Source: Pirellulaceae bacterium (lineage in GTDB: Bacteria > Planctomycetota > Planctomycetia > Pirellulales > Pirellulaceae). Taken from it: a stretch of 64,000 nucleotides of DNA. The notes under the pieces are model-generated. The model did not search any database. It worked only from the letters and a program-made list of their open reading frames with translations, and was not told the origin of the DNA. The position numbers and the translations under genes were made by a program. The stretch spans positions 1 through 64,000 of the forward strand of contig JADYZV010000099.1 in NCBI GenBank assembly GCA_020852965.1, written 5' to 3'. Of this stretch, positions 5,313 to 63,431 are shown piece by piece (positions within the stretch are counted from its first letter, which is position 1; each line of letters starts with the position of its first letter).

Positions 5313-7145
5313 ATGTTGCAACAACTATCGACAGAACGGATGGGACTGAGCACAAGGATTGGGCTATTCTGCGGGCTCATGCTAAGCTGCGGCCTACTTC
5401 GAGCCGACGACGGCGTACAACAAGACCGGTCGGCACCGGAACTGCTGCCCGAGAGCGTGGTGGCGGTGGCTGAAATCCCCAAGCTCGGTGCGATTGCAGA
5501 CACGCTCTGGGACCATCCCCTGAGACAGCGACTGCTGGAACTACCTGTATACAAGGCCACGCTGCAATCGAAGGACTTCAAGCAGTTTCAGCAGGGGGTC
5601 AATGCGTTCGAGTCGGCGATGGGAGAGCCGTGGCTGCCTGCCCTAACGAGATTGACCGACGGCGGAGTTACGCTTGCGCTAAGTGTCAGCCAGGGGCCGG
5701 GCATCACGGTACTGATTCGCTCCTCGGACCAGAACGCCTTGGAGAAATTTCGAGATTTTATCTTGGCGATACGCTTACTCTCGGGCAAGGGCAAACTGGT
5801 TCAACAAGCCGAATATCGCGGGCTGACGGCACACGCCCTAAACGACGACGCCAAGATGGTCTTGCTGGATCACTACCTGTTACTGACCAATCAGTCCGAG
5901 CTGGGCAAAGCGATCGTCGATCGCTATTTGGACCCTGGGCAATCCACGCTACAAACCAACGAACGCTATCAACAAACACTGGCCATGCGCAATTCTACTC
6001 ACCCTGCTTTAGCCGGAGAGGAGTCGCCTCGCGTGGCCACAGCGTTTCTCGATTTACAATCACTGCGGCAAGCGGGAGTTGCCAAGGAGGTCTATCACGA
6101 GCGCAGCGGTAACTATTTCGGTGAATTGCTATTGGGTGGACTGCTTACAACCGTGCGGCATGCCCCCTGTGCCGACGTGCAATTGCAACTTTCGAGTTCA
6201 GCCGTCGGTTTGCACTTGGCGACTGAGCACCAGCGTGGCTGGGAGCCGCCACGAGAATACACGTTTGGCGCGCCCGAGCTCGGCGTCGCACCTCCACTAT
6301 TAACCATTCCCAATCGATTGTTTGCTTTGTCGGCGCACCGCGACTTGTCGCAGATGTGGTTGCGAGCAGGCGAGCTACTAACCGAAAACGCGGAAGAGCA
6401 ATTGGCCCAAGCCGACACGCAGTTGGTAACCCTGCTTTCCGGCCACGATTTTGGAGAAGACATTTTGGGATCGTTCGGTAGCGATGTCCGCATCGTGGCC
6501 CAGGTTCAAGACTTTGCGGATAGACTTCCGCGTCCAGCGATCCAGCTTCCCAGTTTTGCTTTCGAATTTCAGATGAAGGATGCCAGTGAGTCCCAAACCG
6601 AATTGCGGCGGATATTCCAAAGCTTCATCGGTTTTATCAATGTCACTGGAGCCACCAACGGCATGCCACCCTTCGACCTGGGGATGGAAGCTGCCGATGG
6701 CGCTCAGTACTACACGGCGACGTACGTTCCCAATCGCGACCAGCAGAAGAACGCTGCTGCACCGATCAATTTCAACTTCTCACCCACGATCGCCTTTGTC
6801 AACGATCGGTTCATTGTGTCGAGTACAACTGCGCTGGCTCGCGAACTAGTGCAAAGCCCAACCAAGATCGAATCGCAACCTGCCGGTGAGGAAACAGAAC
6901 CTGCAACTCATCCAGTTAACACAAGCGCGGTGCTCGATGCTGAACCGCTGCGATCAATTTTGCAATTAAATAAGTCTCATTTGATCGCCAATAACATGTT
7001 AGAACAGGGGCATACGCAAGAGGAAGCGGCAGCGGAAATCGGTCTATTGCTTGAATTAGTCGAGTACCTGCGGCAAGCCGACCTGAGACTGGACTTTAAC
7101 GATGGTCGCATGGAGTTTGATTTTGAATTGAAGCTGGCTAAGTAG
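5313..7145 (+). CDS. Secreted hypothetical protein (610 residues)
   Basis: Not recognised with certainty. From the ATG at 5313 the protein has a signal-peptide-like start: a short polar n-region, the hydrophobic IGLFCGLMLSCGLL and cleavage near LRADD. The body has features reminiscent of planctomycete DUF3352-like periplasmic proteins: LPESVVAVAEIPKLG near the mature N-terminus, repeated beta-rich segments, FIVSSTTALARELV, and a final LRLDFNDGRMEFDFEL. A GTG at 5301 and an ATG at 5340 are alternative starts. The frame is open upstream to 5178, but that part encodes a tandem duplication and no plausible protein. Probably exported; role unknown. Confidence 0.75.
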   Translation: MLQQLSTERMGLSTRIGLFCGLMLSCGLLRADDGVQQDRSAPELLPESVVAVAEIPKLGAIADTLWDHPLRQRLLELPVYKATLQSKDFKQFQQGVNAFESAMGEPWLPALTRLTDGGVTLALSVSQGPGITVLIRSSDQNALEKFRDFILAIRLLSGKGKLVQQAEYRGLTAHALNDDAKMVLLDHYLLLTNQSELGKAIVDRYLDPGQSTLQTNERYQQTLAMRNSTHPALAGEESPRVATAFLDLQSLRQAGVAKEVYHERSGNYFGELLLGGLLTTVRHAPCADVQLQLSSSAVGLHLATEHQRGWEPPREYTFGAPELGVAPPLLTIPNRLFALSAHRDLSQMWLRAGELLTENAEEQLAQADTQLVTLLSGHDFGEDILGSFGSDVRIVAQVQDFADRLPRPAIQLPSFAFEFQMKDASESQTELRRIFQSFIGFINVTGATNGMPPFDLGMEAADGAQYYTATYVPNRDQQKNAAAPINFNFSPTIAFVNDRFIVSSTTALARELVQSPTKIESQPAGEETEPATHPVNTSAVLDAEPLRSILQLNKSHLIANNMLEQGHTQEEAAAEIGLLLELVEYLRQADLRLDFNDGRMEFDFELKLAK

Positions 7146-31186: not shown

Positions 31187-31621
31187 CTATTCACCAGCCC
31201 AATAGTCGACGACGAGCACCTTTTCCAGGTGTGGCTTGAGCGTGGCGCCAAAGGCCTTGTGAGCTGGATGCGGAAGGTAGGCATCGCGATCCGCCTCGCT
31301 CTTGAAGGTTAGCAAAAAACAGTGCGTGAAGCCATCTGACAATCCTTCAGGACTGTTGTCGGTGCCGTACTCAAAGGCAGCGATGGCCGGAATCTTGCTA
31401 GGCAGAGCTTTGAATTCAGCGATGATGTGCTGCACATCCTCCGTCGAGGCGGAGTCTTTAAACTGAAACATGACTACGTGTCGCAGCAGTTTGGCTTGCT
31501 TGTCGGCAGCCGTGGGGCGATCGCTCATGTTCAAGTAGACGGCTCCAGCAACAGCGAAGGCAATTGTTAAAACAAAGAATTTGGTGAATCGCGGACAGCA
31601 AGACATCTGGATGGCTTTCAT
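31187..31621 (-). CDS. Dabb family (stress-responsive A/B barrel) protein with N-terminal membrane helix
   Basis: A 144-residue protein with an N-terminal hydrophobic stretch (FTKFFVLTIAFAVAGAVYL), probably a signal anchor, followed by a Dabb domain (LLRHVVMFQFKDSASTEDVQ, then FEYGTDNSPEGLSDGFTHCFLLTF). Family members are small dimeric alpha-beta barrels of varied roles. ATG 31621 is chosen, with ATG 31606 also possible; the longer frame upstream runs through two repeat hairpins and is not protein-like. A secreted form appears common in planctomycetes; the substrate is unknown. Confidence 0.8.
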   Translation of the reverse strand: MKAIQMSCCPRFTKFFVLTIAFAVAGAVYLNMSDRPTAADKQAKLLRHVVMFQFKDSASTEDVQHIIAEFKALPSKIPAIAAFEYGTDNSPEGLSDGFTHCFLLTFKSEADRDAYLPHPAHKAFGATLKPHLEKVLVVDYWAGE

Positions 31622-31629
31622 TAAATGAA

Positions 31630-31679
31630 CACGTTGGTCCCCCAGCGTGATTAAAGTAGCACGTTGGTCCCCCAACGTG
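31630..31679. repeat. GGTCCCC hairpin repeats, family B (two copies)
   Basis: Two 20-base hairpins in direct orientation, 31630-31649 and 31660-31679, each an 8-base stem with loop TCCC (CACGTTGG-TCCC-CCAACGTG in the second; the first has one wobble pair). They lie just upstream of the Dabb gene start. Confidence 0.8.
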
Positions 31680-31721
31680 ATTGAGTCGACTTTCGGTGGA
31701 GTCCACCGAGCTGCGTTAATA

Positions 31722-32852
31722 CTAGCGTTTTTCTTTTGCCAGTTGGCGGAAGTAGCCTTCAATGACTTCGCGATAGTGGCTGGGAAGCTCCTCCGTTAGC
31801 CGCTGCAATGACTCTTGACGCTGGGCGGGCGGAAGATTCCCCCAGCCCGAGCGGTCACCGTTGTCACGATTGTCCACGTCGCCTGGGCCACGACCACCAG
31901 CGATTTGGCTGTCGTCCATCGGCTTCATTTGAGCCGGTGAGGGCGAGCCGGATGGTTGCTGTTGCTGCTGCATCTGCTGTTGCATCTGCTCTTCAATTTT
32001 CTCGATGAGCTTATCGAGCTTATCAACAATTTGCTGCTCTTGGTCGCGGACTCGCGTCCCCGCACGCCCTAGATCCAGGCGACGATGAACGTCCTGCATG
32101 AGCCGAGCGACTTCATCCAAGCTGTCTTCGGCGAGCGGTTCGATGTCGGCAGCGATCAGCTTGCCAACGATTGCAAAGCGACTGGGAAGTTCGCTTTCCC
32201 GCTCCAGCAATAACTTCACATTGGCTAGGCACTCGTCCTTCTTCAGCAGATGGTGCTCTGCGGCGGCCCGATAGAACAATAAAGTAGCTGGATCACAGAC
32301 GGTGGAGGTCTCCAAGCCGGAGAGCGATTCGAGCGATTCGTCGTATAACTTGCGCTGGCCGAAACTGCGACCGCAAGCCAACCGAACGGTGTCCTGCAGC
32401 CAGCCCGGTACGTCGCTGCTCAGCCATGTCAGCTTGCCAGGATAGACTGAGTCCGCCGTGGTGGAGCGCAATTGAGCATTCAATTCAGCGATGCGAGGCT
32501 CGATTAGCCCCCCGACATCGAGCAAGCGATCGAGCAGAGCGGGCCCCCGGTCGGCGCTCTCGGTTTCTTTCCAAAACAGCTCGACCTGCTGTCGCAATTC
32601 CGGCGAGGCAGCGTGCTGGTCAAGGAAGCTGAGCAATTGCTGTTCGTAGACAGCCACGTCGGGCCAATTCCACGATGCGGTCTTCTGAAGGCCATCGGCA
32701 CCCGTGGCTTGCGGCACGGCCCGAGTGATTCGGTCGTCGTCGGCTGCTTGGGGGGCGGCAGCCGCCGCTGCCAGTTTCATGCTCAGCGACAACCACAAGG
32801 CAAACTGAATGGCGTGGGCGGTCTGGCGAAAACATCGTGTTGTGTCGCGCAT
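31722..32852 (-). CDS. Exported hypothetical protein with coiled-coil/Gln-rich region
   Basis: A 376-residue product of unknown family. ATG 32852 has a GGAG about ten bases before it. The N-terminus is hydrophobic (AIQFALWLSLSMKLAAAAAA), probably a signal peptide. A helical, repeat-like middle part contains YDESLESLSGLE and LLFYRAAAEHHLLKKDECLANVKLLL, which is TPR-like. A long helix with many Gln residues (LIEKIEEQMQQQMQQQQQ) suggests a coiled coil, and the C-terminus ends SHYREVIEGYFRQLAKEK. The last element (LTEELPSHYREVIEGYFRQL) is common at the ends of planctomycete proteins associated with VWA/BatA-like systems. Function unknown. Confidence 0.7.
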   Translation of the reverse strand: MRDTTRCFRQTAHAIQFALWLSLSMKLAAAAAAPQAADDDRITRAVPQATGADGLQKTASWNWPDVAVYEQQLLSFLDQHAASPELRQQVELFWKETESADRGPALLDRLLDVGGLIEPRIAELNAQLRSTTADSVYPGKLTWLSSDVPGWLQDTVRLACGRSFGQRKLYDESLESLSGLETSTVCDPATLLFYRAAAEHHLLKKDECLANVKLLLERESELPSRFAIVGKLIAADIEPLAEDSLDEVARLMQDVHRRLDLGRAGTRVRDQEQQIVDKLDKLIEKIEEQMQQQMQQQQQPSGSPSPAQMKPMDDSQIAGGRGPGDVDNRDNGDRSGWGNLPPAQRQESLQRLTEELPSHYREVIEGYFRQLAKEKR

Positions 32853-33261
32853 ACTCTTTAAACTCCAAATGCAAACCGAATCTCCCACCGAGGCTGCGAT
32901 CGCCATACTGCGCAACTCGACCGTCTGGCGACGGTGGCTACCGAGGTAGGGTGGCTACCGAGCAAGAGTAGCTGCCGACGAGTACGAGGCGAAGCCTTTT
33001 AACGGGTAGTGAAAGAGATATAGTGCTCCCATTGTAGCTGGGAAAGGCGACTTTGGCCCGATCGCGGATGATCGGCAAGTAGGTTTTACGCCTTCCCGCG
33101 TGAGGATTCTAGCGGAAAATGCATGTCGGCTACCCCGGATTCCGCACTTTGCGTAAAAAAGTTCCTTTGGATTCGGTGCTAGCTCCCGTTGAGCTGCTTG
33201 GGCAAAGCGGTTAAACCTAACGGCTCATTGCGCGACCTCAACTTGTATAAGTATTATCCAC
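32853..33261. other. Spacer between divergent genes with one family C hairpin
   Basis: Gene-free 409 bases. At 32920-32935 lies the hairpin ACCGTC-TGGC-GACGGT (the reverse-strand form of the GCCA-loop family), followed by two GTGGCTACCGAG-like copies near 32935-32962. The remainder must hold the promoters of the unknown minus-strand gene and of the FabZ gene; no convincing promoter boxes could be assigned. Confidence 0.5.
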
Positions 33262-45682: not shown

Positions 45683-45702
45683 CTACCGTCGCCAGACGGT
45701 AG
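45683..45702. repeat. GCCA-loop hairpin repeat, family C
   Basis: CTACCGTC-GCCA-GACGGTAG, a perfect 8-base stem with GCCA loop. The copy at 63412-63431 has a different stem but the same loop (CTGCGGTC-GCCA-GACCGCAG), and 32920-32935 has it in reverse orientation. Confidence 0.8.
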
Positions 45703-50587: not shown

Positions 50588-50658
50588 TGCCCGGTGGTGT
50601 AATGGTAACACTAGTGATTTTGGTTCACTCATTCATGGTTCGAGTCCATGCCGGGTAG
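50588..50658 (+). tRNA. tRNA-Gln (anticodon TTG)
   Basis: A complete 71-base cloverleaf: acceptor stem TGCCCGG/CCGGGTA (one G-T pair), D arm GTGT-AATGGTA-ACAC, anticodon stem AGTGA/TCACT with loop TTTTGGT (anticodon TTG), T arm CATGG-TTCGAGT-CCATG, discriminator G. The CCA end is not encoded. The 5' U-A closing pair suits glutamine tRNA. Confidence 0.95.
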
Positions 50659-55403: not shown

Positions 55404-56807
55404 CTAAAACTCGGCCGATCCTGGTGTGCGTGGAAACGGAATGCAGTCGCGGATGTTGGTCATGCCCGTAACCCATTGCACGACTCGCTCGAAGCCCAGC
55501 CCAAACCCGGCGTGAGGCACGCTTCCGAACTTTCGTAGATCGATGTACCACCAGTACTCTTCCTCGGGGAGCTTCATCTCGCGAAGCCTGGCCAGCAGCA
55601 TATCAAGTCGTTCCTCGCGCGGGCTACCACCGACGATCTCGCCGACTTGCGGCACCAACACATCCATGGCGGCTACTGTCTTGCCGTCGTCGTTGCTGCG
55701 CATGTAGAACGGCTTGATCGACTTGGGGTAGTTGTACAATATCAAGGGCCCCTGAACGTGCTTTTCGGTCAAAAAGCGTTCGTGTTCCGCTTGCAGATCC
55801 GCGCCCCAACTCACCGGATACTCGAACTTTTCGCCCGACTTTTGCAACACGTCGACTGCGTCGGTATAGGTCATGTGTTCGAACGGTTTGTCTACTACCA
55901 TTTGCAGCGCGGCCAACAAGCCAGGCTGAACTCGTTCTTCGAAGAATGCCATGTCGTCGCCGCATTGGCCGAGCGTATCTCCCAGCAGCCGCTTGATGAA
56001 TCGCTCGGCCAGCGCCATGTCGTCGGCCAGCTCAAAAAACGCCGCCTCGGGTTCGATCATCCAAAACTCAGCTAGGTGACGGCTGGTATTGCTATTCTCC
56101 GCGCGAAAAGTCGGACCGAATGTGTAACAACGTCCCAGTGCGGTAGCGTAGGCCTCCGCTTCCAATTGCCCCGAGACGGTCAGGTAAGTTGGCTTGCCAA
56201 AAAAATCTCGCGAATGATCGACCTTGCCATCTTTCAACGGCAAGTTATCGAGTGGCAGAGTCGTCACGCGGAACATCTGCCCAGCCCCTTCGCAATCGCT
56301 GGCGGTGATAATCGGCGTATTGACGTAATAAAACCCTTCCTCTTGGAAGAATTGATGCACGCTGAAAGACAAGCGATTGCGCACGCGCGTCAGGGCACCG
56401 AACGAATTGGTGCGAGGTCTCAAGTGGGCCCATTCGCGGATTTTTTCGAAGCTATGCCGCTTCTTTTGCAGCGGGTAGTCGCTGGGGGCATCGCCAATCA
56501 AGCGCACGCTACTGGCCGCTAGCTCGGTCGCTTGTCCCTGCCCCTGGCTGGCCTTGAGCGTCCCGACCGCCACAATCGAGCTGCCGACCGAGAGCGAACT
56601 GATTTCAGCTTCATAGTTGTCGAGAGTGGCATCGGCAATGATTTGCAAATTGCCAAAGCAACTGCCATCGTTGATCTCGATGAAGCTGAAGCCTCCCTTG
56701 CTATCGCGACGTGTGCGCACCCAACCGCGCACCTCGACCGTCTCCCCCACGCCAGCCGCAGCTCGAGCCGCCTTAACTGAAATCCATTTTGCTGAGGCAC
56801 CAGTCAT
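55404..56807 (-). CDS. asnS: Asparaginyl-tRNA synthetase
   Basis: A 467-residue class II synthetase, normal in length. The N-terminal OB fold includes [23 protein letters not shown]. Class II motif 2 is [21 protein letters not shown] and motif 3 is [15 protein letters not shown]. It charges tRNA-Asn in the cytoplasm. ATG 56807 starts at a normal distance before the OB fold, while the longer frame runs through family B and D repeats and is not coding. Confidence 0.95.
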
Positions 56808-56834
56808 ATTGCTTTCGATTCTTTCAATGTGGCC

Positions 56835-56973
56835 CGACGCTCCGCCGTCGGTCTTGCGACCCCAACGTAGCACGGCGGTCCCCGCCGTGAACTTTTCAAT
56901 TTTTATTTTTTTGAATCCTCAGTGGGGGACCACTGAGCTACTTAGCTAATTCCTCAGTGGGGACCGCTGAGCT
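56835..56973. repeat. Cluster of family B and family D hairpins
   Basis: In the trxB-asnS gap: family D at 56835-56853, family B hairpins at 56873-56891 (CACGGCGG-TCC-CCGCCGTG), 56920-56939 (CTCAGTGG-GGGA-CCACTGAG) and 56955-56973 (CTCAGTGG-GGA-CCGCTGAG). The last two are reverse-oriented copies of the GGTCCCC loop type. An A/T-rich tract separates them. Confidence 0.85.
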
Positions 56974-56993
56974 ACGTTACATTCCAGCTTCAA

Positions 56994-58058
56994 CTATCCG
57001 TGTTCCGCCAAATAGCGTTCCGCATCTAGGGCTGCCATGCAGCCCGTCCCAGCCGACGTGATGGCTTGGCGGTAGTAGTCATCAGCCACGTCACCCGCAG
57101 CAAACACGCCGGGGACACTGGTCTTGGTTCGGAAGGCCTCCGTCCACTTGATGTAACCACTGCTATTCATCGTTAGCTTTCCTTTCAGAAAGTCCGTATT
57201 GGGCGTATGTCCAATCGCTACGAACATACCGCTAACCGTTAGTTCGCTCGATGCACCATCGACGGTATTCTTCAGTCGCAAGCCGGTAACCTGCTTGTCG
57301 TCGCCTAGCACTTCTTCGACGACACTATTCCACACCAGCTCTATTTTGGGATGCTTCATCGCCCGGTCTTGCATGACCTGCGAAGCTCGCAGTTCATCGC
57401 GACGGTGGACCAAATAGATTGTTTCTGCTCCGTCGAGGTTGGCCAAATAGCTGGCTTCTTCCACGGCCGTATCGCCACCACCGATGACGGCCAGTGGCTT
57501 ACGACGATAAGTCGGCAGGGCACCATCGCACACGGCGCACGCGCTGACCCCCCGATTCTTGTACTTTTCTTCCGATTCGAGCCCCAGATAATTGGCTCGA
57601 GCCCCGGTGGCGATGATCACTGTCTGCGCTTTCACTGGTTCACCGCTAGCGGGAATGACGGTAAACGGTCTGGTCGAAAAATCGACGTCGACAATATCAT
57701 CACCGACAACACGCGTGCCAAAGTTGAGCGCTTGCTGCTTCATCAGCTCCATCAGCTCGACACCCTGCACGGCATAGTGAGGCTGTCCATCTTTTTCATG
57801 GCCCTTGGGAGCTGGAGGCAAGTTGTAGTGGCGATCCTTGTCGACGGCGCTCTCCACGAATGCGCGGACGTTTCCAGCCGGAAAGCCTGCGTAGTTTTCA
57901 ACTTCGGTCGTGAAGGCCAACTGCCCTAGCGGAATCATTTCGGGTTTGGCGGTCCCTTCGAACAGCAGCGGTCGTAGATTGGCCCGGGCCGCGTAAATGG
58001 CCGCCGACCAGCCAGCCGGGCCGCTTCCGATGATAACCGTTCGTTCGATCTCGCTCAT
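56994..58058 (-). CDS. trxB: Thioredoxin reductase
   Basis: A 354-residue flavoprotein that passes NADPH electrons to thioredoxin. FAD motif [10 protein letters not shown] at residue 11, redox-active CAVC (Cys174 and Cys177), NADPH motif [16 protein letters not shown], and C-terminal [14 protein letters not shown]. It is about 36 residues longer than the usual form because of an extra stretch at about residues 62-97. ATG 58058 is used; a TTG two codons upstream has an AGGA at better spacing and is possible. Confidence 0.94.
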
Positions 58059-58276
58059 GGTCAATGGACTTCCTAGTGGATTCGAGTGTGTAATTCTCTA
58101 GTTTGAAATACTTGGGTTGTGTTCTACTTGGCAGATTATAGGCGCACGGCTGGCTACTTCCCAGACGACCTATGCCGCCGTTCATTTTGACGCTTGTCCG
58201 CGGCCAGCACGAGAATTGGAAGAAATAGTGTGGCGTTTGAGACGAAAAATCTCTGCGAGCACCGTGCCTCTAGGTT

Positions 58277-62541: not shown

Positions 62542-62639
62542 GCTCTGGAAACTCCCATCCACGTATTCGATATCTACACAGAAAAGAGAATCTTAACCTG
62601 CCAACCCATCAGTTGGTAGACGTGTGGATTGCAACGGAG

Positions 62640-62682
62640 CACGGTGGTCCCCCACCGAGATACACGGTGGGGGACCACCGTG
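62640..62682. repeat. Family B hairpins, inverted pair
   Basis: CACGGTGG-TCCC-CCACCG at 62640-62657 and its reverse-oriented partner CACGGTGG-GGGA-CCACCGTG at 62663-62682 form both short hairpins and one long hairpin. Located between fabF and the acyltransferase gene. Confidence 0.85.
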
Positions 62683-62687
62683 CCACG

Positions 62688-63411: not shown

Positions 63412-63431
63412 CTGCGGTCGCCAGACCGCAG
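63412..63431. repeat. GCCA-loop hairpin repeat, family C
   Basis: CTGCGGTC-GCCA-GACCGCAG, an 8-base perfect stem. Compared with 45683-45702, several stem pairs differ on both sides together, while the loop is unchanged. Confidence 0.8.

Follow-up and report, generated by a model that had tools for sequence, protein, structure and literature searches.

Hairpin repeats in the window

The window, i.e. the whole 64,000-nucleotide stretch analysed here, contains a family of short hairpins, named family B, at three spots (Table 1). The cluster at 56867-56975 separates two genes of the minus strand. Its upstream neighbour is thioredoxin-reductase-like and is read by us as trxB, while the downstream neighbour codes for a class II D/K/N tRNA synthetase with OB fold, presumably asnS-like. 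All three clusters are likely intergenic, as the overlapping ORF calls run past likely ATG starts (31187-31762, ATG at 31621; 55404-56873, where the true start is probably the ATG at 56807).

A family B unit measures 23-24 nt and consists of a GTAG-like tag, an 8-bp stem and a short loop of mostly 3-4 nt. The unpaired tag 5' of the stem was absent from the description in the sequence-only reading, which had reported seven copies at three loci, each with TCC(C) or its complement between the stem arms. A covariance model, run with filters off, located eight copies at E <= 0.01; since five of the 14 copies with four-base loops from which the model was built came from the window, this count is a map rather than an independent test. 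Seven of the eight had the loop TCC or TCCC, and the additional eighth copy was degenerate with the loop ACT. The four stems quoted in the reading were all present, with the loop TCCC at 31660-31679, TCC at 56871-56889 and minus-strand TCCC at 56918-56937 and 62663-62682; only the start given as 56873 had to be shifted by two bases to 56871. The tag was GTAG in four copies and GCAG, GTGG, GGAG and TGAA in the others. Three of the seven TCC(C) copies had imperfect stems (31630-31649, 56953-56971 and 62640-62659). Folding of four single-unit copies gave z-scores of about -6 in three and -1.4 in the fourth, and the fold of 56953-56975 was barely above chance, with 17 of 200 shuffles equally good. 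Across the whole window perfect hairpins were not in excess (18 vs 16.2 on average over 20 shuffles), and perfect hairpins with a GG-TCC type tip numbered 4 vs 0-2 per shuffle.

Table 1. Hairpin units in the window and the genes next to the cluster at 56867-56975
Feature	Position	Strand	Tag	Stem	Loop	Basis or score
Family B unit, degenerate tag	31626..31649	+	TGAA	CACGTTGG/CCAGCGTG	TCCC	31.7 bits
Family B unit, perfect 8-bp stem	31656..31679	+	GTAG	CACGTTGG/CCAACGTG	TCCC	41.2 bits; fold z -6.0
Degenerate family B unit	31692..31714	-	GCAG		ACT	20.6 bits
GCCA-loop hairpin	32920-32935	-	GTAG-like		GCCA	
GCCA-loop hairpin	45683-45702	+	GTAG-like		GCCA	
asnS-like gene (by reading), downstream of cluster	55404..56873	-				class II D/K/N type, OB fold
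Family C hairpin	56829..56852	+	GTGG	CCGACG..CGTCGG	TCC (core)	read from sequence
Family B unit	56867..56889	+	GTAG	CACGGCGG/CCGCCGTG	TCC	32.1 bits; fold
Family B unit	56918..56941	-	GTAG	CTCAGTGG/CCACTGAG	TCCC	40.0 bits; fold
Family B unit, imperfect stem	56953..56975	-	GTAG	CTCAGCGG/CCACTGAG	TCC	23.0 bits; weak fold
trxB (name by reading), upstream of cluster	56994..58064	-				Pyr_redox_2
Family B unit, left half of inverted dimer	62636..62659	+	GGAG	CACGGTGG/CCACCGAG	TCCC	37.9 bits
Family B unit, right half of dimer	62663..62686	-	GTGG	CACGGTGG/CCACCGTG	TCCC	39.4 bits
GCCA-loop hairpin	63412-63431	+	GTAG-like		GCCA	

A second hairpin family of the window combined a GTAG-like tag and a stem with the loop GCCA (Table 1). 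Its pattern GTAGNNNNNNTCGCCAGA occurred 83 times in the source genome vs 0 for the control; 12 of another 59 genomes held 24-384 copies each, and the stems differed among the matches listed. The GCCA-loop family thus repeats the pattern of a fixed loop with a variable stem.

Copy number and tag in the source genome

The source genome comprises 8.37 Mb in 199 contigs and is 99.5 % complete. The pattern GTAGCNNNNNGGTCCC had 156 matches (78 on each strand), its reversed version six (3 + 3). Without a defined loop, the pattern GNAGCWCGGYGG-N1..7-CCRCCGW matched 163 times (83 + 80) vs 0 for the control. Among the 100 matches listed of these 163, the loop began with TC in 94, being TCCC in 49, TCC in 20, TCT in 18, TCCT in 4 and one of three other sequences in one match each. 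With the second tag base left free, the same 100 listed matches carried GTAG in 93, GCAG in 6 and GAAG in 1 case. The covariance model gave at least 165 matches, 150 of 6212 first-look candidates having been scored. A scan that did not require a tag found 177 units, 140 with GTAG, 14 with GTGG and 7 with GCAG, in stretches that had been fetched by patterns or a model including GTAG. The same scan over 400 kb of other stretches of the source genome, which lie away from the known copies and so bear on untagged copies elsewhere only, yielded two weak units (6 of 8 pairs), both untagged; untagged copies are therefore unlikely to exist elsewhere in large numbers. With a tag directly 5' of the stem, a short foldable palindrome and many, mainly intergenic copies, family B has the features of GTAG-tagged repetitive extragenic palindromes (REPs).

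Paired changes in the stems and arrangement in dimers

Changes on one side of the stem had been proposed to be matched on the other side. For a comparison, 142 units were chosen by their 5' half alone (GTAGC, five free bases, GGTCCC) and the 3' arm was then inspected; the units were drawn from the window together with the stretches fetched from the source genome, and copies with identical context were removed. Relative to the commonest stem, pairs 2-6 had 95 two-sided changes, 90 of which were still Watson-Crick, vs 37 one-sided changes. The excess of paired over single changes, named in the sequence-only reading as the observation on which its claim would stand or fall, was thus found at the pairs open to the test. 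Pairs 2, 3, 4, 5 and 6 contributed 47, 1, 2, 12 and 33 two-sided and 10, 5, 6, 11 and 5 one-sided changes, respectively. Watson-Crick pairing was present in 668 of the 710 cells of these pairs, and 2000 permutations gave 540 on average and never more than 568; after reduction to the 46 distinct sequences it was present in 191 of 230 cells (permutations: mean 156.5, maximum 176). At pairs 1, 7 and 8, whose 5' side was fixed by the selection pattern so that only one-sided changes can appear, 51, 4 and 4 changes were counted. Pair 1 was lost in 51 of the 142 units, as C.A in 45 of these 51, hence part of family B has a 7-bp stem.

A model-fitted alignment of 128 rows, 87 of them distinct, had 91.4 % standard-paired cells vs 81.7 % after shuffling, 66 two-sided cells vs 25.7, and a covariation score of 0.265 vs 0.108, with slid partners at or below 0.031. 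Two measures did not stand out in this alignment: five pairs had a two-sided change (3.5 in shuffles, reached in 45 of 500), and further pair types numbered 12 (11.1 in shuffles, reached in 184 of 500). The paired changes define the stem subfamilies CTCGGTGG, CTCGGCGG, CACGGTGG, CACGTTGG, CACGGCGG and CTCAGTGG. As the two-sided changes fall mostly into a few subfamilies, at pairs 2, 5 and 6, they go back to few independent events.

The stems differ most often at pair 2, by T-A or A-T, and in most inverted dimers this difference also distinguishes the left from the right hand. Among 28 close inverted pairs with the tags outside, the spacer measured 2-3 bp in 20 (ATT eight times, AAT three times). 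A CT-stem was joined to a CA-stem in 24 of these 28 pairs vs 3 of 37 tandem pairs (Fisher p 1e-10); 34 of the 37 tandem neighbours were of the same type. The dimer of the window at 62636-62686, a same-type CA/CA pair, is an exception among the inverted dimers. Close inverted pairs, a feature of BIMEs and REPINs, were present 28 times, 24 of them heterotypic. The marking of left and right hands by pair 2 is not expected from neutral drift.

Paired changes can also arise without selection for structure when mutation preserves palindromes, e.g., by template switching between the two arms. Such a process would yield perfect stems of many sequences, and the two-sided changes do fall within the stem; palindrome-correcting mutation may have contributed some of them. 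Acting alone, it cannot keep an unpaired tag and a loop constant, and it accounts neither for the pairing of CT- with CA-stems in left and right hands nor for the association with transposase genes described below, so we consider it an improbable source of the whole pattern. Of the two causes offered by the sequence-only reading, selection for structure is favoured, in the form of a single-stranded DNA hairpin, and a copying process that keeps palindromes is left as a possible origin of some paired changes.

Genomic position and spread

Clusters were counted once per 400 bp, which gave 97 with six at an edge. According to the gene calls of a simple codon-usage caller, also used for orientation, 78 of the 91 non-edge clusters were intergenic; of positions drawn at random from the same loci, 81 % fell inside genes. 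The flanking genes were co-directional at 45 of the intergenic clusters and convergent at 21, and in 46 of these 66 cases, counted by hand, the loop was at most 50 bp from a stop codon. In 10 of the 142 units the gene called ahead of the hairpin used the TAG within the tag as its stop codon.

In 59 relatives, 14 of them of the same genus, GTAGCNNNNNGGTCCC remained at background, with no more than 6 matches in any genome, similar to the reversed control. Of 396 genomes from the order, eight contained the stricter pattern GTAGCNCGKYGGTCCCC, with 136 copies in the source genome, 28 in G163, 8 in G261 and single copies in G009, G072, G073, G174 and G235. A search for GTAGN7GTCCCC, which leaves the stem free, in 149 genomes of the family revealed a clear excess over the reversed pattern in G078 (99 vs 4), G163 (49 vs 6), G179 (49 vs 10) and G143 (31 vs 6), and a weaker one in a few others, e.g., G101 (21 vs 4) and G013 (17 vs 2). 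The stems in G078, G163 and G179 include CCCGATTG, AGCGATTG, AACAGTTG and AACCGTTG.

The stretch downstream of trxB, with four hairpins in the window, was compared among relatives. A hairpin of the TCC type was absent at this position from nine of ten relatives inspected; among the nine, L077 had a 7-bp hairpin of another kind, and the gene that comes next is apparently a different one in L076 and L077. The tenth, the Pirellulaceae MAG locus L127, contained three tandem hairpins downstream of trxB (7061-7145) with the stem ACGGCTG and the loop TCCC or TCCT. The covariance model applied to 80 trxB loci gave one weak match (L127, E 0.01) and four weaker ones. As the hairpins of L127 have another stem at the same place, the spot downstream of trxB was probably filled more than once.

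These observations bear on a role as RNA. Hairpins in 3' untranslated regions could act as stabilisers, attenuators or protein-binding sites, and the paired changes would then reflect selection for RNA folding. Clusters just past stop codons are in agreement with this, and many are for the same reason probably transcribed; single mismatches were G.T or T.G in 7 and A.C or C.A in 4 cases, counts too small to decide. In conflict with an RNA role, no Rfam 15 family matched at the window loci, the only hit over the gathering score being a tRNA at 50588, the orientation relative to co-directional flanking genes was just slightly biased (38 units in the same and 26 in the opposite direction), the hairpins were missing from the trxB site of all inspected relatives except L127, the spread was patchy with 8 of 396 genomes, and the unpaired GTAG tag is left unexplained. 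The results for family B thus argue against an RNA element, to which we assign a low probability. Dispersed intrinsic terminators, suggested by GC-rich hairpins past stop codons, were rejected as very improbable, since no more than 8 of 142 units had TTTT in the 10 nt after the hairpin and 13 of 142 had it on the other side (random 10-mers: 2 %), a mild rise on both sides that is no terminator signature.

RAYT genes and their flanking hairpins

REP-associated tyrosine transposases (RAYTs) are HUH nucleases of the Y1 type related to the transposases of IS200/IS605 elements. The source genome has seven Y1 transposase genes (PF01797), two of which are cut by contig ends. None of the seven had a convincing family B copy nearby (about 1.5 kb); the best weak match, with 16.3 bits and E 0.009, was situated in an apparent ORF near L033. 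An intact cognate RAYT was not found in the 199 contigs, nor was any RAYT gene with family B copies on its flanks, the arrangement typical of a REPtron. In G163, which shares exact stems of family B, no RAYT flanked by them was detected either, so that the CTCGGTGG-type stem was not seen flanking any RAYT.

A candidate for the type of enzyme involved came from G078. Its RAYT (L240/L246) of 243 aa has GAGCGATTG-TCCC/TCCT hairpins on both sides, together with a CCCGATTG-TCCT hairpin on one side and a shortened one on the other. The protein scored 24 bits with PF01797 (cut-off 23) and 51 bits with the model NF047646 for REP-associated tyrosine transposases, below the cut-off of 80 bits. The only relative of this RAYT in the source genome at E <= 1e-10 was an N-terminal fragment, present twice. 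The duplicated remnant lies among family C hairpins, which are tagged by GTGG or GTAG and have a TCC loop. In L276 this family, with the stem CCGACG, flanks the duplicated fragment at about 1752-2240; a match of the covariance model on L276 (16.3 bits, E 0.005) is a family C hairpin. Family C had at least 11 copies in the fetched loci, a lower bound from a narrow pattern that missed the copy at 56829-56852.

Among the 149 genomes of the family, 69 had relatives of the G078 RAYT at E <= 1e-10, and 30 loci from these 69 genomes were examined. In a search that imposed no loop, 25 of the 30 loci had recurrent 8-bp hairpins with a tag and a TCC-type loop. Twenty-four had the loops TCC, TCCC or TCCT, and G166, with TCCA/TCT, was counted as TCC-type. 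The remaining five were G136 with the loop GCT, G131 with the loop CCC, and G024, G007 and G163 without such hairpins. Several loci, L246, L251, L254, L259 and L265 among them, held further recurrent hairpins, some with other loops. Hairpins with the tag GTCG and a TCC-type loop flank the RAYT relatives L254, L260, L262-L265, L267-L270, L272 and L273. Around the RAYT of L259 (G131) the hairpins formed a GTAG array (ACCAATTC-CCC) with a period of about 250 bp. Other Y1 genes were flanked by several GTAG-tagged hairpins with other loops, namely L177 and L187 (G009), L223 (G143), L168 (G007) and L180 (G010).

The hairpin characters were placed on a quick tree of the RAYT proteins (33 rows, SH-aLRT) in which nine forks were open and some branches long, each locus being represented by one hand-chosen hairpin. 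The stem required at least 19 changes, the loop 3, the base closing the loop 4, and the tag, which was partly preselected by a required GT, 3; L246 and L248 also hold copies with GTGG or GTAA. Whole-stem labels have more possible states, thus counts per position are the fairer comparison: 3-10 changes for the stem, 0-2 for the loop and 0, 0, 3, 0 for the four tag positions.

Interpretation

Family B very probably represents GTAG-tagged REPs, arranged as single units, in tandem and in REPIN-like pairs, which act as single-stranded DNA hairpins with a tag read by a RAYT, a TCC-type loop and an intact stem. Each unit would act in the folded, single-stranded state. The RAYT would recognise the unpaired GTAG, the TCC-type loop and the intact stem of about 8 bp, and would copy or move the element into intergenic DNA, mostly just past stop codons. 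The stem may be read mainly as paired DNA, any change of its sequence being tolerated that is matched on the opposite side, and with tag and loop kept, a fixed loop on a covarying stem would be the outcome. We conclude that the hairpins are, or formerly were, mobilised by an enzyme reading tag, loop and pairing. The mover of the copies in the source genome would be a RAYT, as suggested by the flanking hairpins in related genomes, and tag and loop would be the elements read by the enzyme, which the biochemistry published for another RAYT supports.

A more far-reaching reading has, in our judgement, about even odds in all its parts together. One clade of RAYTs would read the GTAG or GTCG tag and the TCC loop and would check the 8-bp stem for pairing only; stems would diverge by two-sided changes into private REP stems of each lineage, and two stems would mark the two hands of a dimer. 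If such a code of tag plus loop holds true, the diverged stems are substrates for probing whether cross-recognition was kept or lost, and orphan families such as family B could use the RAYT of another lineage. In this planctomycete REP population the stem was measured to vary, with loop and tag almost constant, and the RAYT genes and the hairpins beside them offer material for tests of enzyme recognition.

Comparison with known systems

Repeats of this kind are already known, since GTAG repeats were described in planctomycetes in 2013 (Di Nocera et al. 2013, PMC3733652). That study reports several REP families for Rhodopirellula baltica and subfamilies with 'alternative complementary stem residues', and states that some species may have lost the REPtron. 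Beyond such general publications cited here, our literature search found none on these repeats in Pirellulaceae. The present analysis adds family B itself, the left and right hands of its dimers, the tie of tag and loop to one RAYT clade and the contrast in rates between stem and loop.

Family B resembles the GTAG REPs of PMC3733652, including those of R. baltica, in the unpaired GTAG beside a stem of 6-13 bp, the short loop, the many copies, the dimers in both orientations, the subfamilies with complementary exchanges in the stem and the planctomycete hosts. It may be one of the 24 families of that study. Close inverted REP pairs and arrays are shared with BIMEs and REPINs (PMC2817692 and PMC3686654), from which family B differs in that 2-3 bp separate the two units in 20 of the 28 inverted pairs. 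Inverted pairs of different REP types have a parallel in the y-z mosaics of E. coli (PMC8266576). With the ends of IS200/IS605 elements (PMC6006769), family B has in common a hairpin with a 5' guide tetranucleotide that is recognised by a Y1 enzyme as single-stranded DNA, a recognition that for family B is presumed. Unlike IS200/IS605, the dimers carry no transposase gene between two ends.

The closest biochemical model is REPtron Sm of Stenotrophomonas maltophilia, in which GTAG also directly precedes an 8-bp stem with a short loop (PMC8266576); unlike the enzyme presumed for family B, the one of REPtron Sm belongs to another phylum and acts on another loop. The biochemistry in that source covers enzymes of E. 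coli, S. maltophilia and Marinomonas. TnpA-REP of S. maltophilia acts on a perfect 8-bp REP with GTAG and a loop base is essential; stem blocks swapped to their complement had no drastic effect, while stem mismatches reduced or almost eliminated cleavage. Applied to family B, this rule predicts a fixed tag, a fixed loop and a stem that is free in sequence but paired.
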